Shown: positions 10,461 to 27,935 of the stretch, in pieces
Layout of the letters: each line of letters starts with the position of its first letter
Numbering within the stretch: position 1 is the stretch's first letter
Source of the DNA: Pararhizobium sp. A13
GTDB lineage: Bacteria; Pseudomonadota; Alphaproteobacteria; Rhizobiales; Rhizobiaceae
Length of the DNA stretch: 64,000 bases
Reading direction: 5' to 3'
Assembly: GCF_040126305.1 (NCBI RefSeq)
Contig: NZ_CP149511.1
Span: 248,001 to 312,000 of the forward strand
Position numbers and translations under genes: made by a program
Notes under the pieces: model-generated
Told to the model about the DNA's origin: nothing
Database searches by the model: none
Seen by the model: the letters and a program-made list of their open reading frames with translations, nothing else

Positions 10461-11897
10461 ATGTACGCATCCTACGGCCTGTTCATTGATGGCATCTGGT
10501 CCGGTGCGCCGCAAGGCGCCAGCACTGAGATCACCGATCCCGGCAATGGCGAAATTCTCGGGATTGTCCCGGTAGCCAGCGTAGACGATACGCAGGCTGC
10601 GATTGCATCCGCCCATCGTGGTTTACGGATATGGCGCGAGACGCCTGCCTGGACGCGTGCGGACCTTCTCCACAAGGTGGCCGACGTCATGGTGCGCCGG
10701 GCAGCGGAAGGCGCGCTGCGAATGACCCTCGAAACCGGCAAGCCCTTGGCTCAAGCCGGACGCGAGTGGACACTGGCGACTGACCAATTCCGTTGGTATG
10801 CCGAGGAAGCTCGTCGTATCTACGGCCGGATCGTGGAAAGCCGTGTGCCGGGTGGTCGGCTGGAAATCACGCACGAGCCGGTCGGCGTCGTCGCTGCCTT
10901 TACGGCCTGGAATTTCCCCGCAGCGCTGATCGCCCGCAAGGTCGCTCCGGCCCTGGCTGCCGGATGTTCCGTGATCGTGCGGCCGTCCGTAGAGGTGCCA
11001 GGCGTGGCGATGATCCTGTTTGACTGCCTTCGGGAAGCGGGCATTCCGGCGGGCGTCGCAAACCTGCTTATTGGGCCAACGGCCAATACATACAAACCGA
11101 TCATGGCATCGTCTGTCGTCAGAAAGGTCTCCTTGACCGGGTCGACCCAGGTCGGCCAGCAGATGATCCGCGATAGCGCCGAAACCGTCAAACGGGTCAG
11201 CATGGAACTGGGCGGCAATGCCCCCATGATCGTTTTCGACGACGCGGACATCGAAAAGACACTGGATCTGGCGGTGCCCACAAAATACGCAAACAGCGGC
11301 CAGGTCTGCGTCACTCCGGACAGGTTCTATGTCCACGAGTCGGTGCATGACCGCTTCGCCGAAGGCTTCGCGGCGCGCGCGCGCGCCCTGCGCTTGGGGC
11401 ACGGGACAGAAGAAACGACCCAGATGGGCCCGCTGATCAATCAACGCCGGCTCAATGCCATTGAAGAGGTTGTCGCGGATGCCCGCGATCGCGGGGGAAA
11501 CATTCAGGCCGGCGGCCGACGGCCGGCAGATATCAATGCTGGGTTCTTCTTCGAGCCGACCGTGATCACCGGATTGCCGGATGATGCAAAGGCCCTTGCG
11601 GAAGAGAATTTCGGACCGATCGCAGCCATCACATCGTTCTCGACCGTCGACGAAGTATTCGAGCGGGCAAACGTCTCGGAGATGGGCCTGTCAGCCTATG
11701 TCTTCACGCGTGATGCGGGACGGGCGCGCGATGCGGCGGCGCGCCTGGAGGCGGGGATGGTGGGTGTCAACAGCTTTGCGCTCGCGGCAGCGGAAGCGCC
11801 GTTCGGCGGCATTAAAGCCAGCGGAATGGGCCGCGAAGGCGGTACCGAAGGCATCCTTGACTATTCAAACGTCAAGCTCGCCCAGATGTTGATTTGA
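10461..11897 (+). CDS. Aldehyde dehydrogenase, succinate-semialdehyde-dehydrogenase-like
   Basis: NAD(P)-dependent oxidation of an aldehyde or semialdehyde to the acid. 478 residues, normal for the family. The active-site Glu lies in MELGGNAP (Glu249) and the nucleophilic Cys in NSGQVC (Cys283); TAWNFPAALIARK and GSTQVGQQ mark the cofactor site. GAGGAGGAGAC-type binding site before the ATG. The aldolase gene starts 10 bp downstream, so the three genes 10461-13712 form an operon. The best family guess is succinate or glutarate semialdehyde dehydrogenase, but in this context the substrate is probably a semialdehyde from the neighbouring pathway. Confidence 0.9.
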   Translation: MYASYGLFIDGIWSGAPQGASTEITDPGNGEILGIVPVASVDDTQAAIASAHRGLRIWRETPAWTRADLLHKVADVMVRRAAEGALRMTLETGKPLAQAGREWTLATDQFRWYAEEARRIYGRIVESRVPGGRLEITHEPVGVVAAFTAWNFPAALIARKVAPALAAGCSVIVRPSVEVPGVAMILFDCLREAGIPAGVANLLIGPTANTYKPIMASSVVRKVSLTGSTQVGQQMIRDSAETVKRVSMELGGNAPMIVFDDADIEKTLDLAVPTKYANSGQVCVTPDRFYVHESVHDRFAEGFAARARALRLGHGTEETTQMGPLINQRRLNAIEEVVADARDRGGNIQAGGRRPADINAGFFFEPTVITGLPDDAKALAEENFGPIAAITSFSTVDEVFERANVSEMGLSAYVFTRDAGRARDAAARLEAGMVGVNSFALAAAEAPFGGIKASGMGREGGTEGILDYSNVKLAQMLI

Positions 11898-11907
11898 GGA
11901 ATTTGCA

Positions 11908-12723
11908 ATGATCAAGAACGGTGTAAAGAGCCGCTGGGCGGAGGGAAAGCCGGTGCTTAACGGCTGGCTTTCGATTGCCAATTCATTCAGTGCGGAAATC
12001 ATGGCAGCACAGGGCTACGATGCCATAACCATTGACATGCAGCATGGTATCGTTGGCTACGATGGTGCCATCCCGATGTTGCAAGCGATGCGGGCAAGCG
12101 GCGTGACCCCTATGGTGCGTGTTCCCTGGCTCGATCCAGCAGATATCATGAAGGCATTGGATGCCGGCGCCTATGGTGTGATCTGCCCAATGATCAACAC
12201 CCGCGCGGAGGCAGAGGAGCTCGTATCCTACGTTCGCTATCCGCCGACAGGAGTGCGCAGTTTCGGACCGAGCCGAGCCCTGTTCTCTACAGGCACAGGG
12301 TATGCCAACGAGGCAGACGACGAGATCATATGCCTTGCAATGATCGAGACGGCGCAGGCCTTCCAGAATTTGGAGGATATCCTCGCGACTCCCGGATTGG
12401 ACGGCGTCTACATCGGCCCGGCCGACCTCACGCTCGGCCTGCAGGGCCGGAAAAATGCGCCGGGCTTCGATCGCAAGGAGCCCGAGATGATTGACGCCAT
12501 TCAGAAGATACTTCGATCAGCGCATGCAGCTGGCAAGAGAGCCGCCCTTCACAACGGCACGGCGGAATATGCGGCGCAAGCGGTCGGCTGGGGTTTCGAT
12601 CTGGTCACGGTCTCCAACGATGTTCGTCTTCTGGCGGGAGCGGCAGAGGCCAGCGTGAAGAAGTTCCGGGAACTCATCGAAGGAACTGCGCCGGAAAATG
12701 CAGTCGACAGGGGAGGATACTGA
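11908..12723 (+). CDS. HpcH/HpaI-family aldolase
   Basis: Class II, metal-dependent aldolase that cleaves 2-keto-(3-deoxy)-4-hydroxy acids to pyruvate and an aldehyde. 271 residues. Family marks are DMQHGIVGYD (about residue 48), GVICPMINTRAEAE (about 90), metal-ligand Glu in AMIETAQAF (about 150) and Asp in GVYIGPADLTLGL (about 175). Overlap-free, tight spacing to the aldehyde dehydrogenase before it and 2 bp to the dehydrogenase after it. Related enzymes act on 2-keto-3-deoxy-rhamnonate, 2-dehydro-3-deoxy-galactarate and homoprotocatechuate products, so the substrate is open. Confidence 0.9.
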   Translation: MIKNGVKSRWAEGKPVLNGWLSIANSFSAEIMAAQGYDAITIDMQHGIVGYDGAIPMLQAMRASGVTPMVRVPWLDPADIMKALDAGAYGVICPMINTRAEAEELVSYVRYPPTGVRSFGPSRALFSTGTGYANEADDEIICLAMIETAQAFQNLEDILATPGLDGVYIGPADLTLGLQGRKNAPGFDRKEPEMIDAIQKILRSAHAAGKRAALHNGTAEYAAQAVGWGFDLVTVSNDVRLLAGAAEASVKKFRELIEGTAPENAVDRGGY

Positions 12724-12725
12724 CG

Positions 12726-13712
12726 ATGCCGAGAGTAGTTGTTGCCGGCAAGATCCATCCGGACGGTCTCGCAATCCTGCAAAATGCGTCGGGCGTGGAA
12801 ATCGACTATGTCGAGGATGTTTCGGCAGCCAGCTACGAACCCTTTATGGCAACGGCTGACGCGCTCCTCATCCGGACACAGCCTCTGACCGCCGGCTTTA
12901 TTGATGCATCGCCCACACTGAAGATCGTGTCGCGGCATGGCGTGGGCTATGATTCCGTCGATGTGGCGGCGCTCAACAAGCGCGGCATTCCTCTTGCCGT
13001 CGTCGGCGATGTCAACTCGCGCGCTGTTGCGGAGCATGCCGCGATGCTGATGCTTTCTGCCGCCCGCCGGACGGTGCTTTTTGATCGGAAAATGAGAGAG
13101 GGCGACTGGAACTACCGCAACAGTCTCGATGCCTTCGAACTGGATGGAGGCACGCTCCTGATCGTTGGATTCGGCCGCATTGGCAAACGCCTGGCGCAGA
13201 TTGCCAAAGGCCTAGGAATGACGGTTTTGGCGCACGATCGCTATCAGGATAGCGCCTCCATAGAGGCTGAAGGCGTCGTTGCCGTCGATGACCTGATGGA
13301 GGGCCTGAAGGTCGCGGATGTCGTATCGCTGCATGTCCCGAAAGTGGGCGCGGAGCCGCTCATCGGCGCGGCAGAGCTTGCACTCATGAAGCCGACGGCG
13401 ATCCTCGTCAATACGGCGCGCGGAGGATTGGTTGACGAAGGCGCCGTTTTACAGGCGCTTGAGGAGCGCCGTTTGGGCGCGGCCGGGCTCGATGTCTTCG
13501 TGGACGAGCCGCCGCTCCCCGGAAATCCGCTCCTGTTTTGTGAAAGACTGGTTCTGTCGCCACACAATGCCGGCCTGACCGAAGCCTGCGGCCGGCGAAT
13601 GGCGATCTCGGCCGCGACGAACATCCTGGATTTCTTCAACGGATCGCTAGACCCTGCACTGATCGTCAACAGTGCGGAAATCGAGGCGCATGCCGCACCT
13701 TTGCGAGCTTAG
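12726..13712 (+). CDS. D-2-hydroxyacid dehydrogenase (phosphoglycerate dehydrogenase-like)
   Basis: NAD-dependent oxidoreductase of 2-hydroxy acids and 2-keto acids. 328 residues. The NAD-binding fold has GFGRIGKRLAQIAKGLG (about residue 145-165). The catalytic triad is visible as Arg in NTARGG (about 235), Glu in DVFVDEPP (about 264) and His in SPHNAGLT (about 283). It lacks the C-terminal ACT domain of biosynthetic SerA enzymes, so a catabolic role is more likely. Third gene of the operon; starts 2 bp after the aldolase stop. Confidence 0.9.
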   Translation: MPRVVVAGKIHPDGLAILQNASGVEIDYVEDVSAASYEPFMATADALLIRTQPLTAGFIDASPTLKIVSRHGVGYDSVDVAALNKRGIPLAVVGDVNSRAVAEHAAMLMLSAARRTVLFDRKMREGDWNYRNSLDAFELDGGTLLIVGFGRIGKRLAQIAKGLGMTVLAHDRYQDSASIEAEGVVAVDDLMEGLKVADVVSLHVPKVGAEPLIGAAELALMKPTAILVNTARGGLVDEGAVLQALEERRLGAAGLDVFVDEPPLPGNPLLFCERLVLSPHNAGLTEACGRRMAISAATNILDFFNGSLDPALIVNSAEIEAHAAPLRA

Positions 13713-13970
13713 CATGTCGGTGCTCTTGTTCCTCAACATACAACTCTTGCCGAAATGTGGCTGTCCTCAAAGGCTGTAGGACGATGATTATCCATTCCGA
13801 TCTCGTCGTCTTCGACAAGCCGACGCGAGTGTCGAGATCGGCGCCAAACAGCGGATCTCGCTACGCTGTTTGGCGCTAAGCGGTTTCGCCGCATCGCTTT
13901 GCCTTTCGGGAAGCCCGCATGCCTGGCATCCCGACGGAGGAACGTTTTAGCTCGGGGGAGGAGCGGGTTG
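13713..13970. other. Intergenic region with two nested inverted repeats
   Basis: No gene. CCGATCTCG (13797-13805) pairs with CGAGATCGG (13833-13841), and directly after it GCGCCAAACAGCG (13841-13853) pairs with CGCTGTTTGGCGC (13864-13876). The second hairpin may end the upstream operon; neither is followed by a T-run. A long upstream extension of the chemoreceptor frame is possible but has no ribosome binding site. Confidence 0.5.
13841..13876 (+). terminator. Probable hairpin terminator (13-bp perfect stem)
   Basis: Perfect 13-bp stem with a 10-base loop, 129 bp after the dehydrogenase stop and 94 bp before the chemoreceptor start. Read as a terminator by position and stem strength; there is no T-run. 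Confidence 0.4.
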
Positions 13971-16493
13971 ATGTTGGGCAATGTACTTTCACGCTTTAAG
14001 ATTCAAACGAAAGTTTTGATCTTCATCGTGCCTTTCGTGCTGAGCATAGTCGCCGTGAGCCTGACCGGACTCTATACCTCCGGCATGCTTCAAGGCCGCA
14101 TCGAGATTTCAAATACAGTGTTGCGGTCGCTCAGCGGCTTCAGGGACGTCTCCTCTGCAATGCAATTGTTCCTTGACGATACGACTGAGGCTAACCGCAA
14201 CCTCGTTGTTCAACAGTTGCAAAGCCAGCAGGAGATCCTGAAGACCGTCCTACCGCAGCTTGACCCTGCGGCGGAAGGGCGCGTGGATATCGAAGAAGCT
14301 TTCACATCCATCGATGGGGTTGTCCAACGCATGGGCTTGCTTTGGACACTTCACGAAAACGAAGTGAATTTGCTCCGGAAACTGCAGCAGAACGTCAGTG
14401 TCGTAGCGTCTGTACAGGTTGATTTGGCAGAGGCCATGAAGAAGATCCAGCGGTCGGCCGAAGATGAGGAAACGCAAGCCCGAAATATGCTTCGGGATGC
14501 CGACAGGGTAAAACAGGCCGGAAGGTTTTTTGCGGATTTTGCGGCGCGTTTCGGCAATCTCCAGGCAGACGCGGAGAAATTCGATCTTGTAGCGGGCAAC
14601 CTTAAGGAATTGACGCGGAACCAACGTGTTCTGGGCATGTCCGTATCTGAAGGGGACCGCGGGCTTGCGCTTGAAATCGGGGAAGTGATCGCTGCGCTGA
14701 GCAAACGTGTTTCCGGCAAAGATAAATCCCAGATGACAGTCGCGGCGATGAAATCCGGCGTGGATGTATTCGCGCAGATATCCAGCCGCCTCGTGCAGGC
14801 TGCCGAGCACAAAACCAGAGACGCGACCGAAAAATTTGCTTCGCTCGCGGAGCCGGTGGCGAAAGCGGAGGCGTCGCTGAAGGATAGCCAGAAACTGGTG
14901 AACTCGGGCTACTCGGTTCAAATTATGATGGCGCGCTTCATTCTCGTGCCTTCAGACAGCAATCTTCAAAGACTTCAACAAGAGTTTGTGAGTGTGCGAA
15001 AGAACGTGGACGCGCTGTCCGCCACTTCGTCCATGGACCTTCTCGAAATCATCGATGCAACGCTTCTTCCGGCGATCGATGCCTTGGACCAGGCGGCGGG
15101 CCAACTTGTGAAAGTCAGCCAGGCCCGCAAAACGAACTTCGATACAGCCGTCACCGACCTTGACTTGATCTGGAACAAACTCACGCACTTCGCGGAACTC
15201 CAGAAGAAGACGGCAGGAAAGGAGCGAAGTGACGCGAACTCGATTTCGATCGGTACCACCGCGCTTGGCATTCTCATTTCCATCTTCGCGGGCATCGGCT
15301 TGGTGCTAACGTTTAGAGGCCCAATTGGACAGATCACCGCGTCGATGCGGCGCCTTGCGGAGGGAAAGCTAGATACGGAAATCGTGGGCGAGGCGCGCAT
15401 TGATGAGATCGGCGAGATGGCCCGCGCATTGGGCGTCTTTAAACAGAATGCGATAACAAAAATTGAGGTGGAACAGACGAGCGCCCTCGAACGTGCGAAA
15501 GCTGAGGAAGACAGAAACCGCAGCGATTTCGAAAAACAAGATGTCGAGCGCCAGATCCAATTTGCCGTCGATACCCTTGGGTTGGGCCTTCACCGCCTGG
15601 CCGACGGAGATATCTCGACGACGATCGACACACCGTTGTTCGGGCGCCTGGAGAGGCTTCGGACAGACTTCAACGTATCGCTGGTTCGGTTGCAAGAAAC
15701 GATGGGGAAAATTCGGTCGAATACCTGTGCGATCCAGAACAATGCCGGTGAAATGAGCACGTCCGCGGATGACTTGGCTAAGCGCACGGAACACCAAGCT
15801 GTTGCACTCGAACAGGTAGCCGCCGCCGTCGAGGAAATTACCCGGACGGTTCAGTCTTCCGTCGCCCGCGCGGAGGACGCCAATCGCATTATCGCTGAAA
15901 CGAAGACAGCAGCCGATGCATCTTCGGCGGTTGTCGCGGAGGCTGTCGCGGCGATGACCAAGATCGAGGAAGCGTCCCACCAGATCGTCCAGATTATCGA
16001 TGTAATTGACGAAATCGCGTTCCAAACCAACCTTCTTGCGCTGAACGCGGGAATTGAAGCTGCACGGGCCGGCGATGCGGGAAAAGGCTTTGCCGTTGTC
16101 GCGCAAGAGGTGCGTGAACTCGCCGGCCGATCGGCCGTAGCTGCCCAGGAGATCAAAGACCTGATCAATAAATCGAGCGAAGAGGTCGCCGCCGGGTCGC
16201 TTATCGTTCAGCAAACCAGTGTCGTCCTAGCGGAGATTTCGACAAAGGTCGTTACGGTATCCCATCAGGTCGAAGTCATTGCAAAGGCAAGCCGGGAGCA
16301 GTCGAACGCACTCGGAGAGGTTAACGCTTCGGTGAATGCAATGGATCAAATGACGCAGAGAAATGCAGCAATGGTCGAGGAAACAAATGCGGCCACCCGG
16401 CAACTTGCCGAGGAAACTGACGATCTCATGCGGCTGGTTGGCAGCTTCAAAACTGCGGATGTTGCAATCAGTGCGACCACGACCGCCGCTTGA
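13971..16493 (+). CDS. Methyl-accepting chemotaxis protein with a long helical sensor domain
   Basis: Inner-membrane chemoreceptor, 840 residues from the ATG at 13971, which has GGGGGAGGAGCGGG upstream; a longer frame from 13899 has no such site. TM1 spans about residues 12-36. A periplasmic, almost all-helical domain of about 375 residues follows, in the style of helical bimodular (HBM) sensors. TM2 is near residues 425-445 and leads into a HAMP domain, then a second HAMP-like segment near 540-600. The signalling tip is intact ([23 protein letters not shown], about residue 677). It lies between the two catabolic operons and may sense their substrate, which is inference. Confidence 0.93.
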
Positions 16494-16661: not shown

Positions 16662-17573
16662 ATGCCAAGAGTAAAAAAATCAGAACAGGCGCTGCCCCCG
16701 ATTGCAAACTATGAAAGCTTCGTCAATGCGGTGACCGAGGCCTATCCGTCCTTAAGTGACCGATTTCAGCAAGTCGCCCGTTTTCTCACCCAGAATTCGA
16801 ATGCTGTCGCAATGCAGTCGATCAACACCATTGCGGAGCAGTGTGGCGCGCATCCTTCGATCCTCGTTCGTTTCGCCCAGCACTTCGGCTTTTCCGGATT
16901 CAAGCAGTTGCAAGGCGTCTTTCAAACGAGGTTATCGACAGCTGCCCCTGGCTACAGGGAGCGCATTAGCGCGCTCGACGCGGATCTCGAAAAGAACAAG
17001 CGCAAAGGCAACTTGGGGTTCCTGCACGACTTGGTGGTGCGTGATATAGCTACGCTGCAGGAACTGCTGAATGCCGTTACCGAAAAGTCGCTCGCGGACG
17101 CGGCCAAGCTCCTAAAGAACGCCGATACTATTTTCATAGCGGGGCAACTGCGATCGGAGCCTATCGCGGGTTTCCTCCGGTATGTTTTGTCCATGCTGCG
17201 GCGTAGGGTCATCCTGCTTGATCCCGCGGGAGGCCTGGCACCCGAAATGGCTCAGGTTATGGGGAAAGACGACGTCCTGGTCGCGATTTCGTTTCGCCAC
17301 TATGCCAAGGAAGTTGTCGCCGTCGCAGATGTAGCTGCGAGCAACGGCACGCCGATGGTTGCAATAACCGATAGTCAGCTTTCTCCGCTCGCGAAAAATG
17401 CAGCGGTCTTATTTACAGTGCCGGAGGATGAGTATTCGTTCTCCCGCTCTCTCGCGGCGCCAATGTGCATTACCCAGTGTATTGCGATCGCCTTGGCGGC
17501 CTTGCTGCAGGAAGATAGTGAAGCTACGCCGCACATTCCTACCGTCACAGAAAATCAAAGACGCAAAGTATAA
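16662..17573 (+). CDS. MurR/RpiR-family transcriptional regulator
   Basis: 303 residues. The N-terminal HTH_6 domain has NTIAEQCGAHPSILVRFAQHFGFSGF (about residues 55-80), a pattern typical of the family. Residues 120-265 form a SIS sugar-phosphate-binding domain (IFIAGQLRSEPIAG, VLVAISFRHYAKEVV, AITDSQLSPLAKNA). Such proteins sense phosphosugars; rhizobial IolR, the inositol-catabolism repressor, is one. Binding site GAGGTTATGGA before the ATG. It lies just upstream of the iolD operon, so it is the natural candidate regulator of that operon and perhaps of the unit at 10461. Confidence 0.92.
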   Translation: MPRVKKSEQALPPIANYESFVNAVTEAYPSLSDRFQQVARFLTQNSNAVAMQSINTIAEQCGAHPSILVRFAQHFGFSGFKQLQGVFQTRLSTAAPGYRERISALDADLEKNKRKGNLGFLHDLVVRDIATLQELLNAVTEKSLADAAKLLKNADTIFIAGQLRSEPIAGFLRYVLSMLRRRVILLDPAGGLAPEMAQVMGKDDVLVAISFRHYAKEVVAVADVAASNGTPMVAITDSQLSPLAKNAAVLFTVPEDEYSFSRSLAAPMCITQCIAIALAALLQEDSEATPHIPTVTENQRRKV

Positions 17574-17907
17574 GCGAGGCCACGTGACCGCAGCGCCTCG
17601 AAGAGTTTCGTGACACTTCTCCTTTTACGGAGCGCCGTTCTGCGAGCGGACGAATGGCTGCTCGAGCCAATACGAGTGCGCTCGCCATTCCTGTCGGATA
17701 ACCTCGACGATTTTCCTCTTTCAGCATGAACCGGGCAAGATCGAATTCGAGATTTGTCATGTCCCGGAAAGCTCGCTCCCGGCACTTGAAGCTGAAGGGG
17801 TCTATGAAAGCGTGCATGCAAAAAAGATTGCAAATAATAAAAATCTACAATAATAATTCTCCGCGTGTTCTTGCCGTCCGATCGGCGAAATGGGAGGAGA
17901 GCGGACC
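17574..17907. promoter_or_regulatory. Promoter region of the iolD-containing operon
   Basis: No convincing gene in this 330-bp gap. Its most distinctive content is an AT-rich stretch at 17813-17859 carrying the TGCAA/AAAA motif, in an otherwise GC-rich setting, about 50 bp before the first gene of the operon. Confidence 0.55.
17813..17859. promoter_or_regulatory. Candidate operator, TGCAA/AAAA motif
   Basis: TGCAAAAAAGATTGCAAA is followed by AAAAATCTACAATAATAATT. The first part matches TGCAAAAAGACTTGCAA before iolD (19104). The second matches AAAAAGCTGCAATAATAATT at 10196-10215. Three promoters of the same apparent pathway therefore share the motif. Confidence 0.45.
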
Positions 17908-19190: not shown

Positions 19191-21032
19191 ATGTCTACTG
19201 TTCGTCTGACCATGGCACAAGCCCTGGTTCGTTTCCTTTGCAACCAGTTCACCGAGATCGATGGTCGGCGTGAGCCGCTGTTCCCAGGCGTGTTCGCCAT
19301 TTTCGGCCATGGTAACGTCACCTGCCTTTCGGAAGCTCTCGAGGCGGTAAAAGACACTCTTCCAACCTGGCGTGGTCAGAACGAGCAGTCCATGGCGCTT
19401 GCCGCCATCGGTTTTGCGAAGGCGACGCGCCGTCGCCAGATCATGGTTGCCACATCTTCGATCGGTCCGGGCGCTTTGAACATGGTAACCGCCGCTGGCG
19501 TCGCCCACACCAACAGGCTTCCGGTGCTCCTCCTTGCAGGTGATGCGTTCGTCAATCGTCGGCCGGATCCGGTCATGCAGCAGGTCGAGCATTTCGGCAA
19601 TCCGACGATTGGCGTCAATGACGCCTTCAAGCCGGTGACCCGGTACTGGGACAAGATCGTCCATCCCGAGCAAATCATCTCCTCGCTGCCGCAGGCGGTC
19701 GCCGTCATGCTTGATCCGGCCGATTGCGGTCCAGCCTTTATCTCATTGCCGCAAGACGTTCAGGAGCTTGCGTGGGACTACCCCGAAACCTTCTTCGAGC
19801 CGACCCTGCACCGTGTTCCGCGTCCGCGTCCCGATCGTGAAAGCCTGGCAGAAGCGATCGCTGTTTTGAAGGCGGCGAAACGGCCCCTTATCATTTCCGG
19901 TGGTGGCGTACGTTATTCCGGCGCCGAACAGGTACTTGCAGATTTCGCCGAAAAGCACGGTATCCCGCTTTGCGAAACGATAGCCGGGAAGGGGGCAGTC
20001 ACCCACTACCATCCCGCCCACATCGGGCCGATCGGTATCGTCGGCTCGACCTCGGCCAATGCGCTGGCAGGTGAAGCCGACGTTGTGCTTGCCGTCGGTA
20101 CGCGTCTTATGGACTTCACGACCGGTTCCTGGACCGCTTTCTCGAAGAGCGCGACTTTTGTTTCGGTCAATGCGGCCCGTTGGGACGCCAAGAAGCATCG
20201 TGCTGTCGCTGTTGTTGGCGACGCCCTTGAATCCGTCAATGAGCTGGAAGCCGGTTTGGCTGACTATAAAGCCGATGCGCTGTGGACGGAAAAGGGCCGT
20301 GCTGAGTTCGCCAAATGGAACGCCGCGTTGGACGGGTACCAGAAGCCGACGAATGCGCCTGTTCCAACCTACGCGCAAGTCGTCGGTATTGTGAATGCCA
20401 AGGCAGGGGATCGTGATCTTCTCATCACTGCCGCGGGCGGCCTGCCGGGCGAGGTGATGAAAAACTGGCGCGTGAAGGCACCGAACACCTTCGACTGCGA
20501 ATTCGGCTTTTCCTGCATGGGGTACGAGATCGCCGCCGGCTGGGGTGCGGCGATGGCCGATTCTTCGCGGACGCCGATCGTCATGATTGGCGACGGCACC
20601 TACATGATGATGAACTCGGACGTCTATTCTACGGTGCTCTCTGGGCACAAAATGATCCTGATCGTGTGCGACAATGGCGGCTACGCTGTCATCAACCGTC
20701 TTCAGAACGCCAAAGGCGGGGCATCTTTCAACAACCTACTGAAAGACTGCCGCGTCAAGGAACCATTCCCTGTCGACTTCGGAAAGCATGCAGAGTCGAT
20801 GGGCGCGCTGACCCGTCACGTCGAAAGCCTCGCCGATTTGGGTGATGCAGTGGAATGGGCCCAGTCGACCGACAGGACTACGGTGCTGACGATCGTTTCG
20901 GACGCGTTCACGTGGACGCCCGGCGATGCCTGGTGGGATGTCGGTGTGCCGCAGGTGAGCGAACGTCCCGAAGTCAACGCGGCGTCGGCAGACCAACTGG
21001 CTGGCCGCAACAAGCAGCGTGTGGGCGTTTAA
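19191..21032 (+). CDS. iolD: 3D-(3,5/4)-trihydroxycyclohexane-1,2-dione hydrolase (IolD) or close paralogue
   Basis: ThDP-dependent enzyme that in inositol catabolism hydrolyses the C-C bond of the cyclic dione and opens the ring to 5-deoxyglucuronate. 613 residues, the usual length. ThDP-family features: cofactor-activating Glu64 in NEQSMALAA, a central Rossmann-like domain (about 200-340), and the metal/ThDP motif GDGTYMMMNSDVYS starting at about residue 467 with VCDNGGYAVI following. RBS GGGAGG before the ATG. The neighbours resemble iolG- and iolE-type enzymes, but iolB, iolC and iolJ are absent, so it may act on an analogue of the inositol intermediate. Confidence 0.9.
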   Translation: MSTVRLTMAQALVRFLCNQFTEIDGRREPLFPGVFAIFGHGNVTCLSEALEAVKDTLPTWRGQNEQSMALAAIGFAKATRRRQIMVATSSIGPGALNMVTAAGVAHTNRLPVLLLAGDAFVNRRPDPVMQQVEHFGNPTIGVNDAFKPVTRYWDKIVHPEQIISSLPQAVAVMLDPADCGPAFISLPQDVQELAWDYPETFFEPTLHRVPRPRPDRESLAEAIAVLKAAKRPLIISGGGVRYSGAEQVLADFAEKHGIPLCETIAGKGAVTHYHPAHIGPIGIVGSTSANALAGEADVVLAVGTRLMDFTTGSWTAFSKSATFVSVNAARWDAKKHRAVAVVGDALESVNELEAGLADYKADALWTEKGRAEFAKWNAALDGYQKPTNAPVPTYAQVVGIVNAKAGDRDLLITAAGGLPGEVMKNWRVKAPNTFDCEFGFSCMGYEIAAGWGAAMADSSRTPIVMIGDGTYMMMNSDVYSTVLSGHKMILIVCDNGGYAVINRLQNAKGGASFNNLLKDCRVKEPFPVDFGKHAESMGALTRHVESLADLGDAVEWAQSTDRTTVLTIVSDAFTWTPGDAWWDVGVPQVSERPEVNAASADQLAGRNKQRVGV

Positions 21033-21071: not shown

Positions 21072-21881
21072 ATGAGTACGCAATTCGAGGGCAAGATCGC
21101 CCTTATTACAGGAAGCACGCAAGGCCTCGGTGCCGCGACGGCAAAGCTCTTCGCCGAACGCGGCGCCGAGGGCGTTGTCATCTGCGGCCGTTCGGTTGAG
21201 AAGGGTGCCTCCCAGGTCGAAGCATTGGAAAAGCTCGGGACGAAGGCGGTTTTCGTGCCGGCGGACCTCGGAAATGTTGAAGATTGCCGCAAGATCGTGG
21301 CCGAAGCGGATCGTGTTTTCGGTCGTCTCGATGCCCTCGTCAACGCGGCGGGATTGACCGATCGGGGCACAATTCTCGACACGTCGCCGGAGCTCTTCGA
21401 CCGTCTCTTCGCCGTCAATGTGCGGGCGCCCTTCTTCCTGATCCAAGAGGCTATCAAGCTTTTCAAGCGCGATTCCGTCGAGGGAACCATCGTCAACGTC
21501 TCGTCGATGTCCTCGATGGGCGGACAACCCTTCATAGCCGCCTATTGCTCTTCCAAGGGCGCGCTAGACACCCTCACGCGCAACACCGCTTATGCGACGT
21601 TGCGCAACCGCATCCGCGTCAACAGCCTCAACATCGGCTGGATGGCCTCGGACGGAGAAGACCGTATTCAGCGGGAATATCACGGTTCGCCGGAGAATTG
21701 GCTGGAGGCCGCTGCCGCCGCGCAGCCTTTCGGCAGGCTGATCGATCCTGCCGAGGTCGCCAGAGCTATCGCTTTCCTCGCCTCGCAGGAATCCGGTCTC
21801 ATGACCGGGTCAATCGTCAATTTCGATCAGTCGATCTGGGGCGCATATGACAGTTCGCCCCATCCTGTGGCACCAATCTGA
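21072..21881 (+). CDS. Short-chain dehydrogenase/reductase
   Basis: 269 residues, classical SDR. Cofactor loop TGSTQGLGAATAK (about residues 14-26), NAAG block (LVNAAGLTD, about 91), catalytic Ser in VSSMSSMGG and the YCSSKGAL YxxxK motif at about 157-161. It fits oxidation of a hydroxyl group to a ketone with NAD(P). Lies 39 bp after iolD and 20 bp before the TIM-barrel gene in the same operon. Weak ribosome binding site (GGATAAAAAA). Substrate unknown; a cyclitol or keto-sugar is likely from context. Confidence 0.9.
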   Translation: MSTQFEGKIALITGSTQGLGAATAKLFAERGAEGVVICGRSVEKGASQVEALEKLGTKAVFVPADLGNVEDCRKIVAEADRVFGRLDALVNAAGLTDRGTILDTSPELFDRLFAVNVRAPFFLIQEAIKLFKRDSVEGTIVNVSSMSSMGGQPFIAAYCSSKGALDTLTRNTAYATLRNRIRVNSLNIGWMASDGEDRIQREYHGSPENWLEAAAAAQPFGRLIDPAEVARAIAFLASQESGLMTGSIVNFDQSIWGAYDSSPHPVAPI

Positions 21882-21901
21882 GCGATAGGGAGGTATCTGA
21901 C

Positions 21902-22954
21902 ATGAAAACCATAAAGGGACCGGCAGTTTTCCTCGCGCAGTTCGCCGCGGACGAGGCGCCGTTCAATTCGCTGAAGGGCCTTGCCGGCTGGGCAGCCGAA
22001 AAGGGTTTCAAGGGAGTTCAAATTCCCACTTGGGACACCCGCATTATCGACCTCGAAAAGGCCGCAGAAAGCCAGGACTACGTCGATGAATTTAAGGGCG
22101 TTCTCGCGGAGAACGGGCTGGTGGTGACCGAACTGGCGAGCCACCTCCAGGGACAGCTTGTAGCACTGCACCCCTCGTTCAATCTCCCGGCAGATTCCTT
22201 TGCCCCGGCAAAGGTTCACAAAAACCCCAAGGCCCGACAGGAGTGGGCTGTAAACCAGTTGCTTTGCGCCGCCAAAGCCTCGCGTCGGTTTGGCGTAGAC
22301 CGCCATGTGACGTTCAGCGGTACGCTGCTCTGGCCCTATTTCTACCCCTATCCGCAATGGCCGGACGGGCTGATCTCGGACGGGTTCGACGAACTGGCAA
22401 AACGCTGGCGGCCGTTGCTCGACGCCTTCGACCACGAGGGCGTGGATCTCTGCTATGAGATTCATCCGACAGAAGACTTGCATGACGGGCTGACATTCGA
22501 GAGGTTCCTGGAGCGCGTCGACAATCACGCGCGCTGCAACATCATGTACGATCCGAGCCATCTGGTCCTGCAGTCGATCGACTACCTCACCTACATCGAT
22601 CACTATCATGAGCGGATCAAGACGTTTCACGTCAAGGATGCCGAGTTCCGCCCGACGGGCAAGACAGGCGCGTATGGCGGCTATCAGCCCTGGATCAGCC
22701 GCGCCGGCCGGTTCCGTTCGCCGGGTGATGGCCAGGTCGATTTCGGGGCCATCTTCTCGAAACTCTCGGGCTATGACTTCGATGGCTGGGCTGTGCTCGA
22801 ATGGGAGTGCGCCTTGAAGAACTCCGAAGATGGTGCCGCTGAGGGCGCGCGCTTCATCGCTGATCATATCATCCGCGTATCCGAGCGGGCGTTTGACGAC
22901 TTCGTCAAATCCGGCGCCGATCGCTCCGTGAACCACGAAATTCTCGGTATTTGA
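21902..22954 (+). CDS. TIM-barrel sugar isomerase/epimerase-family protein (AP endonuclease 2 fold)
   Basis: 350 residues. Barrel of the xylose-isomerase-like/AP-endonuclease-2 family, which also includes inosose dehydratase (IolE) and inosose isomerase (IolI). Metal ligands can be read as Glu in CYEIHPTED (about residue 184), Asp/His in MYDPSHLVL (about 219), His in FHVKDAE (about 243) and Glu in LEWEC (about 300). GGGAGG ribosome binding site. Its stop overlaps or abuts the next dehydrogenase. It could be a dehydratase or an epimerase for the cyclitol-like intermediate; sequence alone does not decide. Confidence 0.85.
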   Translation: MKTIKGPAVFLAQFAADEAPFNSLKGLAGWAAEKGFKGVQIPTWDTRIIDLEKAAESQDYVDEFKGVLAENGLVVTELASHLQGQLVALHPSFNLPADSFAPAKVHKNPKARQEWAVNQLLCAAKASRRFGVDRHVTFSGTLLWPYFYPYPQWPDGLISDGFDELAKRWRPLLDAFDHEGVDLCYEIHPTEDLHDGLTFERFLERVDNHARCNIMYDPSHLVLQSIDYLTYIDHYHERIKTFHVKDAEFRPTGKTGAYGGYQPWISRAGRFRSPGDGQVDFGAIFSKLSGYDFDGWAVLEWECALKNSEDGAAEGARFIADHIIRVSERAFDDFVKSGADRSVNHEILGI

Positions 22955-22965
22955 AAGGCAGTGCA

Positions 22966-24141
22966 GTGACTGAATTATCTCTTTCAGAGCGCAGGCTTCG
23001 ACTAGGCATGATCGGTGGAGGCGAGGGCGCCTACATCGGCGGCATTCACCGCTTTGCCGCAAGACTGGACAACAACTACGAGCTGGTTGCGGGGGCATTC
23101 GACGTCGACGCCGAGCGAGGCCATGCGTTCGCTGCAAAGAACTACATCCCTCGGGATCGCTCCTACGGGGATTACAAAGCGATGGTGGAGGCCGAGAAAA
23201 ACCGCCCCGACCGGGTGGACGTCGTGGCGATCTGCACTCCCAACCACACGCATTTTCCCATCGCCAAGGCGTTTCTTGAGGCTGGCATACACGTCATCTG
23301 CGAGAAGCCCATGACGACGACCATCGAGGACGCCATTGCTCTCCACGACCTGGCGCAATCGACGGACCGGTTCCTCGGCGTGACCTATACCTATAGCGGC
23401 TATCCGATGATTCATGAGGCGCGAGCGCTGGTTCAGCGCGGAGACCTCGGAACCATTCGGGTCGTGCAGGTGGAGTATCCGCTTGAGTGGATGGCGACAG
23501 GGATCGAACTCCAGGGCAATCAGCAGGCTGCTTGGCGCACGGATCCCAAGAAGAACGGTCGCGGCGGCTCCATTGGCGACATTGGAACACATGCTTACCA
23601 TCTCGCCGGGTTCGTAACCGGTCTGAAGGCCGATGCGATTGCTGCGGATCTCGCCACTTTTGTCGAAGGACGCGCACTGGATGACAACGCGCATGTGATG
23701 ATCCGCTATCAGGGCGGCGCGCGTGGACTTCTTTGGTCCTCACAAGTAGCGATCGGGCAGTCGAATGGTCTTAGGCTTCGTGTCTTTGGCGAAAAAGGAA
23801 GCTTGGTGTGGCATCAGGAAAGTCCGAACGAGCTCCACTTCACACCACTCTTCGGCGCTCCGACCGTTATAAAACGAGGGCGTGACGATCTTTCGGAGGC
23901 GACGCGTGTCCGCACGCGGACGCCGCCAGGTCATCCTGAAGGATATATCGAGGCGTTCACCAACCTTTATTCGAGTTTTGCAGCGATCATTCGCGCAAAG
24001 GTTTCCGGCGGCGACCAGTCGAGCTTCGCCGAAGGTGTCCCCACCTCCTACGATGGGTTGAAGGGCGTCGCATTCGTCGATGCCGTAGTGGATAGCCATG
24101 AGGCTCATAACGGCGGATGGCAAACACCACGATTCGTTTAA
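22966..24141 (+). CDS. Gfo/Idh/MocA family dehydrogenase (second paralogue)
   Basis: A TTG at 22951 overlaps the preceding stop, but the GTG at 22966 has GAAAGG about 8 bases before it and is preferred, giving 391 residues. Same variant cofactor loop as 17908 (GMIGGGEGAYIGGIH) and intact CEKPMTTT (about residue 108) and GDIGTHAYHLAGF (about 206). The two dehydrogenases look like old duplicates within one operon, perhaps acting on successive hydroxyls or on different stereoisomers. Translationally close to the TIM-barrel gene. Confidence 0.9.
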   Translation: MTELSLSERRLRLGMIGGGEGAYIGGIHRFAARLDNNYELVAGAFDVDAERGHAFAAKNYIPRDRSYGDYKAMVEAEKNRPDRVDVVAICTPNHTHFPIAKAFLEAGIHVICEKPMTTTIEDAIALHDLAQSTDRFLGVTYTYSGYPMIHEARALVQRGDLGTIRVVQVEYPLEWMATGIELQGNQQAAWRTDPKKNGRGGSIGDIGTHAYHLAGFVTGLKADAIAADLATFVEGRALDDNAHVMIRYQGGARGLLWSSQVAIGQSNGLRLRVFGEKGSLVWHQESPNELHFTPLFGAPTVIKRGRDDLSEATRVRTRTPPGHPEGYIEAFTNLYSSFAAIIRAKVSGGDQSSFAEGVPTSYDGLKGVAFVDAVVDSHEAHNGGWQTPRFV

Positions 24142-24248
24142 TCGTGACGGCTGGGGGAGCTAGCTGCAAGGATTGGTATCACTCGCGGATGTGAGGGTAC
24201 CCGAGAATACAAAGAGATAGGTCAAAGCCGGAAGAAGCCGGCAGAACC

Positions 24249-24264: not shown

Positions 24265-24333
24265 CGGAATGAAGACGCTTTGACTTTAACCGCGGGCGAT
24301 TGGGATCGGCCGCACCAACGTGGAGGAAGAGAA

Positions 24334-25260
24334 ATGAAGAAGTTTTTTGCCAGCGCAGCGATTGCAGCAACCTTGATGACAGGCACTGCCCATGCTGAAA
24401 CAATCGGTGTTGCCATGTCGTTGTTTGACGACAATTGGCTGACCGGTCTGCGTACCAGCATGGAAGACTACGGGAAGTCTCTCGATGGCGTGAAAATCGT
24501 AACTGAAGACGGTCAGGGCGATATCGCCAAGCAGCAGAGCCAGGTCGACAATTTCATCGCTTCCGGCGTCGATGCGATCGTCATCATGCTCGTAGACGCT
24601 GACTCCGGTGCTGCGATCTCCAAGACGGCTGCTGCTGCCGGCGTGCCGCTTATCTTTGTCAACAACGCTCCATCAAACGTCGACAGCCTTCCCGACAAAC
24701 AGGCATTCGTCGGATCGAACGAAGAGCAGGCCGGAACCCTCGAAACACAGACGATCTGCAAAATGCTTGGCGGTAAGGGCAAGGCAGTTATCATGCAGGG
24801 TCAGCTCGGCACGACCGGGCAGCGTGGCCGCACGAAGGCCACGCATGACGTCCTTGCTTCTCCGGAATGCAAGGGAATCGAAGTTGTCGAAGAGCAGACG
24901 GCAAACTGGATGCGGACCCCTGCACTCGATCTGATGAGCAACTGGCTCTCGGCCGGCCTCGAGTTCGATGCCGTCATTGCGAACAATGACGAGATGGCGC
25001 TCGGTGCTATCCAGTCTCTGAAGGCTGCTGGCCGGTCGATGGACAGCGTCGCAATCGGTGGCGTTGATGCAACCGCAGACGCACTGCAGGCCCTGGAAGC
25101 CGGCGATCTTGATGTCACCGTTTTTCAGAACGCTGCCGGCCAAGGGAAGGGCGCGATCGACGCGGCCTTGAAGATTGTCAAGGGCGAGGCGATCGAGAAG
25201 AAAAACTACATTCCTTTCGAGCTCGTCACGAAGGAAAATCTTGCTCAGTACAAGAAATAA
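24334..25260 (+). CDS. Periplasmic sugar-binding protein of an ABC importer
   Basis: 308 residues from the ATG at 24334, which follows GGAGGAAGAGAA; a longer frame from 24280 has no signal peptide. A 21-residue signal peptide ends at TAHA before ETIG. The mature protein is a type I periplasmic binding protein of the ribose/inositol-binding group (VDAIVIMLVDADSGA, IANNDEMALGAIQSLK, GGVDATADAL). It delivers the substrate to the ATPase and permease encoded next. Separated from the ATPase gene by a strong hairpin, a common arrangement that keeps binding-protein levels higher. Confidence 0.93.
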   Translation: MKKFFASAAIAATLMTGTAHAETIGVAMSLFDDNWLTGLRTSMEDYGKSLDGVKIVTEDGQGDIAKQQSQVDNFIASGVDAIVIMLVDADSGAAISKTAAAAGVPLIFVNNAPSNVDSLPDKQAFVGSNEEQAGTLETQTICKMLGGKGKAVIMQGQLGTTGQRGRTKATHDVLASPECKGIEVVEEQTANWMRTPALDLMSNWLSAGLEFDAVIANNDEMALGAIQSLKAAGRSMDSVAIGGVDATADALQALEAGDLDVTVFQNAAGQGKGAIDAALKIVKGEAIEKKNYIPFELVTKENLAQYKK

Positions 25261-25267
25261 GACTTGA

Positions 25268-25298
25268 CCGAAGGGCGCGGCAAAGTCGCGCCCTTCGG
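25268..25298 (+). terminator. Intra-operon hairpin after the binding-protein gene
   Basis: CCGAAGGGCGCG and CGCGCCCTTCGG form a perfect 12-bp stem with a 7-base loop, starting 7 bases after the stop. Probably a partial terminator or 3'-end stabiliser that sets the ratio of binding protein to transporter. Confidence 0.65.
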
Positions 25299-25336
25299 CA
25301 CATACATTCCGCGGGCTGTGACTGGGAGGAGAGCCA

Positions 25337-26881
25337 ATGACGAAAATTAGTCCGGCGACGATGGCAGCGGTGAGAGCGAGCAAGGCGGTTCCGAACGCTG
25401 AATACCTCCTTTCCGCAGAGGGTGTTCACAAGGAGTTTCCAGGCGTCGTTGCTCTCGACGATGTCTCGTTCAGGCTCCGACGCGGTACAGTGCATGCGCT
25501 CATGGGCGAGAACGGAGCGGGCAAGTCGACGCTCATGAAAATCCTCGCGGGAATTTACCACCCGGACAGAGGAACGATAAAGCTGAAGGGGGTCGACGTT
25601 AGGCTTCAATCGCCTCTTGACGCCCTCGAGAACGGCATCGCCATGATCCATCAAGAACTCAATCTGATGCCCTTCATGACGGTTGCGGAGAACATATGGA
25701 TCCGGCGCGAGCCGAAAAATAGGTTCGGCTTTGTCGATCATCGCGAAATGCGTCGCATGACAGCGGAACTCTTCGAGCGGTTGAAGATCAATATTGATCC
25801 GGAAATCGAGGTTCGCCATCTTTCGGTGGCAAGCCGCCAGATGGTCGAAATTGCCAAGGCGGTGTCCTACGAGTCCGATGTCTTGATCATGGACGAACCC
25901 ACTTCGGCTCTGACTGAAACGGAAGTCGGTCACTTGTTCGAGATCATCAGAGATCTTCGCGCCCACGGTATCGGTATCGTCTACATCACTCATAAGATGA
26001 ACGAGCTGTTTGAAATTGCCGACGAATTCTCGGTGTTCCGCGACGGGAAATATGTCGGAACACATGCATCGACCGATGTTACCCGCGACGACATCATAAA
26101 AATGATGGTCGGCCGTGAGATCACGCAGATGTTCCCCAAGGAAGTGGTTCCCATTGGCGAGACGGTTCTCTCGGTCAAAAACCTTACTCTAAACGGCGTC
26201 TTCCATGATGTTTCATTCGATGTGCGCGCTGGGGAAATTCTTGGTGTTGCCGGCCTCGTTGGGTCCGGGCGATCGAACGTCGCAGAAACACTCTTTGGTG
26301 TTACGCCTTCCTCATCCGGATCCATCGAGATCAATGGCAAACCTATTCGAATCGATAGTCCTAATACCGCAATCCGCAACCGAATGGCGTTTCTTACGGA
26401 AGATCGCAAGGAGACGGGATGTCTGCTCATCCTTGATATTCTTGAGAACATGCAGGTGGCTGTCCTTCAGGACCAATTCGTGAAGGGCGGGTTTGTGAGA
26501 GAGAAGCAGGCCTACGCTGCCTGCGATGAGATGAGCCGGAAGCTTCGGGTCAAGACACCAAATCTCTATGAGCGCGTCGAAAATCTGTCGGGCGGCAACC
26601 AACAGAAGGTGCTGATCGGCAGATGGCTGCTTACAAACCCGAGGATACTCATCCTTGATGAACCCACACGCGGTATCGACGTTGGTGCAAAAGCGGAGAT
26701 CCATCGCTTCGTGACGGAACTCGCCCGCGATGGAGTAGCGGTCATCATGATTTCGTCCGAGTTGCCGGAAGTGCTTGGAATGAGCGACCGGATCATGGTG
26801 ATGCATGAAGGCCGCGTCACGGGCTTTCTCGATCGGGCCGAAGCAACTCAAATCAAAATCATGGAACTAGCCGCGCGATGA
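25337..26881 (+). CDS. Sugar ABC importer, double ATPase (ribose/inositol type)
   Basis: 514 residues with two tandem ABC domains, the CUT2 pattern. The first domain has Walker [10 protein letters not shown] (about residue 57), a degenerate signature LSVASRQ and Walker [13 protein letters not shown]. The second domain has a non-canonical P-loop ([12 protein letters not shown]), signature LSGGNQQK and [12 protein letters not shown]. Loss of the second P-loop Lys is normal in this subfamily. RBS GGGAGGAGAG. 28 bp before the permease gene. Confidence 0.95.
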
Positions 26882-26909
26882 GCGCTTCCGACGACCAGGA
26901 GGAAAGACG

Positions 26910-27935
26910 ATGAATACGAACCTTGCCGCAGAAACTGCAGGCACCGCAGCCTCCGGATCTGGCCGCCGATTACCTCAGGAACTCAACATCTTCTTCATTC
27001 TCATTGCGATCGCTTTGATCTTCGAGATACTCGGATGGATTTTCGCAGGGCAGAGTTTTCTTCTCAATCCCCAGCGGCTCACCATCATGATCCTGCAGGT
27101 GTCGGTCATTGGCATCATCTCGGTCGGAGTGACACAGGTCATCATCACGGGCGGCATCGACCTTTCCTCCGGATCTGTGGTTGGCATGACGGCGATGATT
27201 GCGGCCGGATTTGCACAGTCCTCAACCTGGGCGCGGGCAATCTATCCAAGCCTAACTGATCTGCCCGCAATAGTGCCCATAGTCACGGGACTGATTATCG
27301 GGATCCTCGCAGGGCTGATCAACGGATCGCTCATTGCGTACACAAAGATTCCGCCGTTCATTGCGACCCTCGGAATGATGGTGTCGGCGCGCGGAATTTC
27401 GAAATGGTACACAAAGGGGCAGCCGGTCTCGGGTTTGACGGAGCAATTCAATTTCATCGGCAGCAGCGTTGCGCCTGTCGTCGTGTTTCTCGTGGTTGCT
27501 CTCATTTTCCACATCGCGCTTCGCTATACCCGCTACGGCAAGTTTACCTACGCGATCGGTGCCAACGTTCAGGCGGCGCGGGTATCGGGCATCAATGTCG
27601 AGGCGCACCTTCTCAAAGTTTATGCCATCGCCGGCCTTCTCGCAGGACTTGCCGGCGTCGTGACCGCTGCCCGAGCGCAGACAGCCCAGTCTGGAATGGG
27701 TGTAATGTACGAACTCGACGCAATTGCTGCGGCCGTTATCGGCGGAACATCGCTTTCGGGTGGCGTGGGGCGCATAACGGGTACCGTGATTGGCACGATC
27801 ATTCTCGGTGTGATGACGTCCGGCTTCACCTTCCTGCGCGTTGATGCTTACTACCAGGAAGTCATCAAGGGCATGATCATCGTCGCCGCTGTCGTGGTAG
27901 ACGTCTACAGGCAAAAGGCCCGCAGAAAGGTTTGA
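26910..27935 (+). CDS. Sugar ABC importer permease (ribose/inositol type)
   Basis: 341 residues with about 9-10 membrane segments, typical of CUT2 permeases. Family marks are GVTQVIITGGIDLSSGSVVGMTAMI (about residues 70-95), PPFIATLGMMVSARG and the coupling region IAAAVIGGTSLSGGVGRITGT (about 271-290). Works as a dimer with the preceding double ATPase. Last gene of the operon; a strong hairpin follows. Confidence 0.95.
   Translation: MNTNLAAETAGTAASGSGRRLPQELNIFFILIAIALIFEILGWIFAGQSFLLNPQRLTIMILQVSVIGIISVGVTQVIITGGIDLSSGSVVGMTAMIAAGFAQSSTWARAIYPSLTDLPAIVPIVTGLIIGILAGLINGSLIAYTKIPPFIATLGMMVSARGISKWYTKGQPVSGLTEQFNFIGSSVAPVVVFLVVALIFHIALRYTRYGKFTYAIGANVQAARVSGINVEAHLLKVYAIAGLLAGLAGVVTAARAQTAQSGMGVMYELDAIAAAVIGGTSLSGGVGRITGTVIGTIILGVMTSGFTFLRVDAYYQEVIKGMIIVAAVVVDVYRQKARRKV

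Follow-up and report, generated by a model that had tools for sequence, protein, structure and literature searches.

Inositol (from phytate) is a major carbon source in soil, in the rhizosphere and in the gut, and its breakdown has been regarded as one pathway, the core of which is formed by IolB, IolC, IolD and IolE. We analyzed a 64,000-nucleotide stretch of the Pararhizobium sp. A13 genome (6.36 Mb in three contigs), called here the window (C2:248001-312000, C2 standing for contig NZ_CP149511.1), which holds a catabolic island built around an IolD homologue. This island is probably a second, complete inositol catabolic system, whose cassette would replace the phosphorylating lower half of the pathway, made up of IolB, IolC and IolJ, by an oxidative, non-phosphorylating one. 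The evidence consists of observed gene content, linkage, the IolD clade, some carriers that have neither IolB nor an IolC above its cut-off, a shared palindrome and conserved catalytic residues. The cassette is common to many soil and plant bacteria, is found on some plasmids and appears to degrade inositol without the usual phosphate step. A broader proposition, to which we give even chances, is that Pseudomonadota possess a second full inositol route, leading from 5-deoxyglucuronate through 5-deoxyglucarate and a 2-keto acid to a hydroxypyruvate-releasing aldolase, without IolB, IolC, IolJ or ATP. Such a route would constitute one regulon under one palindrome, would be mobile on plasmids between orders and would be the sole inositol route in some genera.

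A preliminary description of the window listed, at positions 10461 to 27935, IolD, a short-chain dehydrogenase/reductase (SDR), a TIM-barrel protein, two Gfo/Idh/MocA dehydrogenases and a CUT2 importer, preceded by an aldehyde dehydrogenase (ALDH), an HpcH/HpaI aldolase (HpcH), a D-2-hydroxyacid dehydrogenase (2HAD), a chemoreceptor and an RpiR regulator. All are present as open frames at these positions and on the strands given, and profile matches bear out their families (Table 1). The same gene set is found repeatedly in many genera, beyond what chance would produce. As no iolB or iolC occurs among the open reading frames of the window, a different cyclitol had been proposed as substrate. 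This argument is undermined by the presence of IolG and IolE, both above their cut-offs in the island and recovered by tblastn in most related loci. The island was in fact truncated by the window edge and by the coordinates first assigned to it. In the stretch reaching further left (L226, C2:234000-253000), IolG (TIGR04380, 399.8 bits, cut-off 355; window about -13490 to -12480) and IolE (TIGR04379, 393.7 bits, cut-off 290; window about -2480 to -1460) lie about 12.5 kb and 1.5 kb from the window edge, respectively, and both belong to the island. This stretch additionally contains a second cassette-type SDR gene, an importer and a TIM-barrel gene. In L229, another CUT2 importer adjoins iolG and the genes past this importer look unrelated to inositol; we take the island to extend over about C2:230.7-275.9 kb. 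Between iolE and the Gfo/Idh/MocA gene idhOx, L226 also carries a gene for a PhyH-family (Fe/2-oxoglutarate type) dioxygenase (L226:12721-13899), which could be a candidate demethylase for methyl-inositols.

The absence of IolB and IolC does not extend to the genome. A whole-genome profile search located IolB (320.7 bits, cut-off 205) and IolC (407.1 bits, cut-off 300) on C1, with no over-cut-off match to either on C2. The C1 cluster includes a second IolD, 52% identical to the window protein, as well as genes that similarity identifies as RpiR, IolE and Gfo; its IolC frame, of 645 residues, may presumably carry a fused aldolase-like part. IdhOx of the window is 57% identical to a Gfo protein adjoining this chromosomal cluster, and 45 of its matches in 74 loci are nearer to the window copy. 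Since IolB and IolC accompany another IolD on a different replicon, the island appears as a second inositol-type system. The situation in which the preliminary description would have seen a split standard pathway, a single iolD with iolBC elsewhere, is not that of this genome, which has two iolD genes.

In the proposed pathway, the upper half would be the usual one: IolG would oxidize myo-inositol to 2-keto-inositol, IolE would remove water and IolD would open the dione to 5-deoxyglucuronate. The ALDH, a proposed 5-deoxyglucuronate dehydrogenase, would then oxidize the C1 aldehyde to 5-deoxyglucarate, and the 2HAD, a proposed 5-deoxyglucarate 2-dehydrogenase (or else the SDR), would oxidize C2 to yield a 2-keto acid. 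The C2 hydroxyl is, on the stereochemistry that we assume, R, as expected for a D-2-hydroxyacid enzyme. HpcH is proposed to catalyze a retro-aldol cleavage between C3 and C4, releasing hydroxypyruvate and malonate semialdehyde, the latter being removed by a malonate semialdehyde decarboxylase (MSAD) homologue in this island and by MmsA-type enzymes elsewhere. Alternatively, the SDR would form the keto acid and the 2HAD would be a hydroxypyruvate reductase, producing glycerate. We infer every one of these steps, and the order of the lower ones, from sequence; the absence of IolB and IolC combined with the presence of an ALDH, a 2HAD and a class II 2-keto-acid aldolase is what makes a single oxidative route fit.

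Catalytic residues of the three lower enzymes are conserved in alignments. N151, E249 and C283 of the ALDH occur in at least 98% of 56 rows, H46, R71, E147, D173 and H215 of HpcH in at least 98% of 83 rows, and R232, E261 and H280 of the 2HAD in at least 98% of 76 rows. HpcH belongs to the class II HpcH/HpaI family by profile match and by the presence of the catalytic residues H46, R71, E147 and D173. Its identification as HpaI, GarL or RhmA was rejected, the scores (168, 137-143 and 125 bits) being below the respective cut-offs (369, 393-407 and 441). The nearest solved relatives are chains of SwHKA from Sphingomonas wittichii (E ~1e-67, ~46% identical), with which the cassette aldolase shares the metal and base residues. 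The SwHKA study (PMC10099721) describes crystallization with hydroxypyruvate and a contact of F210 with C3 of this donor. Unlike SwHKA, the cassette enzyme has a histidine at this position (residue 215 of the window protein), as do the remaining cassette and related rows of the alignment, and E. coli GarL and YfaU have a leucine. The D-glucarate/galactarate pathway (GarD, GarL, GarR) resembles the proposed route in cutting an aldarate with a class II HpcH/HpaI aldolase, but differs from it by this donor-contact residue and by its dehydratase, for which no gene was seen in the cassette. Relatives of E. coli garR and garK, which would dispose of hydroxypyruvate, were not found in the cassette loci. 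Regarding the other product, the MSAD homologue carries Pro1, Asp37, Arg73 and Arg75 when aligned to 2aag (E 5.2e-38), residues whose roles we take to be those of the known enzyme. A malonate semialdehyde decarboxylase homologue is also found in the Komagataeibacter cassette, and the cassette of an Acidocella metagenome-assembled genome (MAG) has an MmsA-type fragment (71%) on its margin. Together with the window gene, these provide independent support for the proposed chemistry.

The neighbourhood of this IolD clade was compared across genomes, as the preliminary description had suggested for rhizobia. The closest relatives of the window IolD are Shinella proteins (89-91% identical). The comparison covered the best 80 of 263 matching stretches (IolD 69-91% identical), taken from named genomes, the records of the A13 genome itself possibly being excluded; gene presence was determined by tblastn at set thresholds. 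Besides IolD (80 loci), the search recovered IolE in 57, IolG in 52, idhOx in 47, the SDR in 59, the ALDH in 53, HpcH in 62, the 2HAD in 61, RpiR in 64, the TIM barrel and its Gfo/Idh/MocA partner gfoB in 21 each, IolC in 5 and IolB in 1. ALDH, HpcH and 2HAD occur together in 51 of the 80 loci (34 of the 45 that reach 20 kb or more); IolB or IolC is present in six of the 80. IolG and IolE exceed their NCBIfam cut-offs in the scanned cassette relatives.

The window IolD also matches 183 plasmid records; among the 40 listed, 21 are 67.3-90.5% identical and 19 at most 56.8%, with a gap between. In the upper group, ALDH, HpcH and 2HAD accompany IolD in six of six fetched plasmids, and iolB plus iolC in one (Paracoccus ferrooxidans). 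In the lower group, which served as a control for the other IolD type (<57%), an IolC-like kinase lies within 10 kb in eight of eight fetched and IolB in seven of eight. Complete cassettes reside on plasmids of Klebsiella, Pantoea and Acidiphilium, the Klebsiella aerogenes one being classed as conjugative by PLSDB. Plasmid pFER4 of Paracoccus ferrooxidans (L179) exhibits both lower routes within one cluster: ALDH-HpcH-2HAD, iolG, iolD, iolE, SDR, TIM barrel and gfoB, followed by iolC and iolB, with a pyruvate carboxylase gene. A different inositol-type arrangement was noted on plasmids of Limimaricola, Ruegeria, Rhodobacteraceae SC52, Rhizobium WL3 and Paracoccus fistulariae (L206-L210), which have a LacI regulator, a Gfo-TIM-Gfo set divergent from iolD, an IolC-like kinase, IolB and a class II fructose-bisphosphate aldolase-type enzyme; no gene in these stretches is annotated as iolE.

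An IolD tree of 110 rows (fast search, no bootstrapping; L190, L192, L193, L141 and L184 were marked as long branches) separates the cassette rows, including those of Klebsiella and Pantoea, from the standard rows. In this tree L206-L210 are labelled as neither type, as their kinase and isomerase fall below the identity thresholds; they are an IolC-like kinase and IolB by annotation. Linkage to HpcH spans both large cassette sub-branches. In one sub-branch of the same clade, formed by five metagenome-assembly loci (L097-L101), IolE and iolC stand instead of the aldolase set, and IolB is present in both genomes checked (2/2). This replacement suggests that the ring-opened product of the cassette IolD is the standard one.

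Some carriers of the cassette lack the usual lower enzymes. A whole-genome IolB search, covering the genomes of 50 of the 80 loci, returned over-cut-off matches in 43 and no match in seven: Beijerinckia mobilis, Bradyrhizobium cytisi, B. niftali, Pseudochelatococcus lubricantis, Acidocella aminolytica, Komagataeibacter rhaeticus and a Chelatococcus MAG. None of these seven has IolC over the cut-off, versus five of six IolB-bearing comparison genomes (the sixth scoring 292.6 against 300). In five of the seven, HpcH (65-71%) is found beside the 2HAD, with a full-length ALDH in four of these five. B. cytisi and B. niftali (L092, L093) have IolG, IolE and IolD of the clade, without IolB, over-cut-off IolC or the ALDH-HpcH-2HAD set. 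Additionally, 385 genomes drawn evenly from the class were examined at an IolD threshold of E 1e-235 or better, which retained 13 genomes including A13, the other 12 having an IolD of 59-73% identity. IolB exceeds the cut-off in three of the 12 and not in nine, of which one contains a 49.6-bit remnant with two stops and one is a 67% complete genome. HpcH was sought in ten of the 12 and matched in all ten (46-63%), with a 2HAD adjoining in seven; among the eight searched genomes without IolB, HpcH lies beside the 2HAD in six. Directly next to iolD, several contigs being short, ALDH, HpcH and 2HAD occur together in one of the 12 (L185), HpcH and 2HAD in one, and HpcH alone in one. The cassette hence recurs in genomes without IolB and without above-cut-off IolC.

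A shared operator further unites the cassette. A palindrome, GCAAT-N4-ATTGC, was first spotted by eye upstream of the window ALDH gene and then counted. Of 101 cassette sequences (1.88 Mb), 53 contain it, with 69 sites in total; owing to near-duplicates (L054 and L127 are one locus, and several are from Shinella), these 53 are not all independent cases. By comparison, 59 other arms of equal composition give at most six sites each, spacers of 2, 3, 5 or 6 give 0-7, and 26 control loci (0.50 Mb) contain a single site. From Shinella to Klebsiella and Komagataeibacter, the palindrome precedes the ALDH gene, iolD or iolG, rpiR and importer genes, 64 of the 69 sites being no more than 400 bases ahead of the start of a gene of the cassette or of an importer. 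One operator joins both operons, the regulator and the importers, and the RpiR protein probably controls the cassette through GCAAT-N4-ATTGC, TGCAATTTTTATTGCA being the candidate operator sequence. The A13 genome contains 15 strict palindromes (reversed control, 0), two of them in the island: one before the ALDH gene and one before idhOx (C2:247942-247955, 45-58 bases left of window base 1). Around the 13 others, eight short loci and two C2 regions were inspected, and for most of these sites no connection with inositol genes was apparent. At the two-mismatch tolerance needed for TGCAAAAAGACTTGCA, the total of sites in the window is no higher than chance. The IolR motif of Caulobacter, GGAANATNCGTTCCA, was considered and discarded, with four window matches at up to two mismatches versus ~1.6 expected, none at an island promoter; the positive-control locus L009 showed no clear Caulobacter IolR site either.

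Several observations weigh against an oxidative inositol route. The MSAD gene is present in only two of the 101 cassette loci examined. None of ALDH, HpcH and 2HAD was found in 16 of the 80 loci (three of the 45 of at least 20 kb), many but not all of which are on short contigs. L052 has ALDH, HpcH, 2HAD, TIM barrel and gfoB with no iolD within 20 kb, in a genome that has IolB. Among the carriers without IolB, the cassette of Acidocella aminolytica (L103/L166) has HpcH and 2HAD with merely a fragment of the ALDH, and B. cytisi and B. niftali have a distant HpcH only (46-47%), with neither ALDH nor 2HAD adjoining. Finally, 43 of 50 carriers and A13 itself also possess IolB or standard iol genes, so that the cassette is not the sole route for most of its hosts and may serve another substrate or condition.

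The preliminary description correctly placed the TIM barrel in the IolE/IolI superfamily (PF01261); its identification as IolE or IolI themselves was rejected, as it scores 63.7 bits with TIGR04379 against a cut-off of 290 and its nearest solved relative is 8ro4, a 2-hydroxy-3-keto-glucal hydratase (E 6.9e-163). Members of this family are frequent in the order, with matches at E 1e-40 in 179 of 397 genomes, and A13 has on C1 a 63% identical paralogue, whose neighbours are a Gfo gene and an importer. A tree of 58 rows places the cassette TIM barrels in one 28-row branch, separate from the glucal-hydratase branch. Of these 28 rows, 25 are labelled as cassette, two (L021, L024) are short copies of the cassette loci L051 and L054, and the third unlabelled one (L023, the same place as L053) adjoins an IolE. 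At L053, which has neither iolD nor the aldolase set, the TIM gene of this branch stands beside an over-cut-off IolE and a xylF-like importer. Many of the 30 rows outside the branch come from 4 kb loci, for which linkage to a cassette is therefore possible. The metal-site residues E186, H188, D217, H220, H243 and E302 are invariant in all 58 rows and nine diagnostic columns, W153R and H234I among them, split the two branches, which together suggest a changed substrate. A role as IolE substitute was also considered: of the loci without the TIM barrel, 48 of 59 have IolE, against nine of 21 with it, a distribution which fits but is not independent of descent, and the idea was set aside. We infer that the TIM barrel, GfoA and GfoB perhaps provide entry of other inositols or derivatives, and the TIM-gfoB pair tentatively appears to admit such further compounds.

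In the reading of the preliminary description, the island opens another cyclitol or carbocycle (an inositol isomer, a methyl-inositol or quercitol); GfoA, GfoB and the TIM barrel would then form the dione, and a non-standard product would pass to the aldolase set. In favour of this reading, a duplicate system would be odd in a genome that has kept its standard cluster, 12 of the 21 TIM-bearing loci have no IolE beside the TIM barrel, whose diagnostic columns diverge while its metal site is kept, and a PhyH-type dioxygenase gene lies between iolE and idhOx. We nevertheless consider this reading unlikely, since over-cut-off IolG and IolE occur in the island and its scanned relatives, the TIM barrel and gfoB are missing from 59 of the 80 loci, and the same IolD clade is found beside IolC in L097-L101. 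The part of this proposal by which the ring-opened product is routed through HpcH and the dehydrogenases probably stands, given the recurrence of the cassette in genomes without IolB and above-cut-off IolC; a different cyclitol is not required for it. Less probable again is a split standard pathway, in which the island would add upper-pathway capacity and uptake, IolB and IolC on C1 would finish the degradation and the aldolase set would serve something else. The position of these two genes on C1 and the occurrence of iolC and iolB in one cluster with the aldolase set in Paracoccus ferrooxidans would agree with it, but seven plus nine carriers lack over-cut-off IolB, ALDH, HpcH and 2HAD are conserved in linkage with this IolD clade, and the operator is shared. 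Very improbable, lastly, is a glycoside or anhydrosugar route by oxidation, elimination, hydration and reduction, in which IolD would have been co-opted to cleave 2-hydroxy-3-keto-glucal in the form of a pyranose 2,3-dione (modelled on the routes for phlorizin in Agrobacterium and for levoglucosan in Bacillus smithii, PMC7676230): 8ro4 is nearest to the TIM barrel and levoglucosan dehydrogenase is the top NCBIfam model, far below cut-off, for the window Gfo proteins, but cleavage of such a dione would on chemical grounds leave an ether, IolG and IolE co-occur, the TIM barrel and gfoB are optional, and no eliminase homologue turned up, though no profile search was aimed at one.

Compared with the canonical myo-inositol pathway (IolG, IolE, IolD, IolB, IolC, IolJ, IolA), the oxidative inositol route proposed here would retain IolG, IolE and IolD, an RpiR regulator and a CUT2 importer, as in Caulobacter and rhizobia, and malonate semialdehyde as one end product. 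It would differ by the replacement, in most cassettes, of IolB and IolC by ALDH, 2HAD and HpcH, and by hydroxypyruvate as the other C3 product, formed with no ATP spent. The Agrobacterium 3-keto-glucoside pathway (GlycDH, AtOGE, AtHYD, Gfo; PMC10628242) likewise pairs a homologous hydratase with a Gfo/Idh/MocA gene, whereas the window TIM barrel belongs to a separate branch and its gene lies in an inositol cassette that also encodes IolD and the aldolase set. No description of a non-phosphorylating lower inositol route was found in the open-access literature, most subscription journals being outside this search. By the definition given in a 2022 genome survey (PMC9430895), at least three of iolB, iolC, iolD and iolE had to lie within 10 kb, which places carriers of iolD and iolE only outside it. 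According to the Caulobacter paper of 2008 (PMC2597717), conservation of the module is lower in Bradyrhizobium japonicum. If the proposed route is correct, surveys requiring iolB and iolC undercount inositol users, and a second, ATP-independent lower route exists, which has a separate aldolase specificity and regulator and is mobile on plasmids.

Table 1. Genes and operator-like sites of the island within the window (window coordinates).
Feature	Position	Strand	Remarks
Gfo/Idh/MocA dehydrogenase idhOx	362..1483	+	type usually 3' of 2HAD in cassettes
pntA, NAD(P) transhydrogenase alpha	1800..3371	+	NF006942, 810.9 bits (cut-off 383)
pntB, NAD(P) transhydrogenase beta	3382..4815	+	NF006974, 657.4 bits (slightly below cut-off 689)
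MSAD homologue	5036..5425	-	129 residues, starts MPLLKF; PDB 2aag, E 5.2e-38; PF14552
Pyruvate carboxylase	5452..8907	-	upstream partner of MSAD gene; PF02436, PF02786 and others
Further Gfo/Idh/MocA protein gfoU	8924..10231	-	real start probably near 10045
Strict operator palindrome GCAAT-N4-ATTGC	10378..10391		upstream of ALDH operon
ALDH	10461..11897	+	succinate-semialdehyde dehydrogenase-like; PF00171; top NCBIfam TIGR01780, below its cut-off
Class II HpcH/HpaI aldolase (HpcH)	11908..12723	+	PF03328
2HAD	12726..13712	+	PF02826, PF00389
Chemoreceptor (MCP)	13899..16493	+	PF00015, PF00672
RpiR/MurR-type regulator of the cassette	16662..17573	+	PF01380, PF01418; relative in 64/80 loci
Operator-like TGCAAAAAAGATTGCA	17817..17832		one mismatch; upstream of gfoA-iolD operon
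Gfo/Idh/MocA dehydrogenase gfoA	17890..19140	+	start may be 17908; PF01408, PF02894
Weaker operator-like TGCAAAAAGACTTGCA	19104..19119		two mismatches; just before iolD
IolD, thiamine diphosphate-dependent ring-opening hydrolase	19191..21032	+	cassette clade; TIGR04377, 823.8 bits (cut-off 715)
SDR dehydrogenase	21072..21881	+	PRK06198 model, 464.4 (cut-off 240); relative in 59/80 loci
TIM barrel, hydratase/dehydratase-like	21902..22954	+	PF01261; PDB 8ro4, E 6.9e-163
Gfo/Idh/MocA dehydrogenase gfoB	22951..24141	+	partner of TIM-barrel gene; both held by same 21/80 loci
CUT2 periplasmic binding protein	24280..25260	+	PF13407; nearest solved chains are CUT2 sugar-binding proteins
CUT2 ATPase	25337..26881	+	PF00005, two domains
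CUT2 permease	26910..27935	+	PF02653

Other genes of the island are less widely shared. No gfoU homologue of at least 45% identity was found in the 80 related loci, gfoA at 60% identity or more is restricted to nine, every one from Shinella, and a relative of the chemoreceptor within the cassette occurs in a single locus, that of Shinella granuli (L074, 57%). PntAB may balance NADH and NADPH, and its tie to the pathway is putative. The longest frame of the MSAD homologue shares four bases with that of the pyruvate carboxylase, and a full-length pyruvate carboxylase gene (64-65%) adjoins two other cassettes (L139 and L179).

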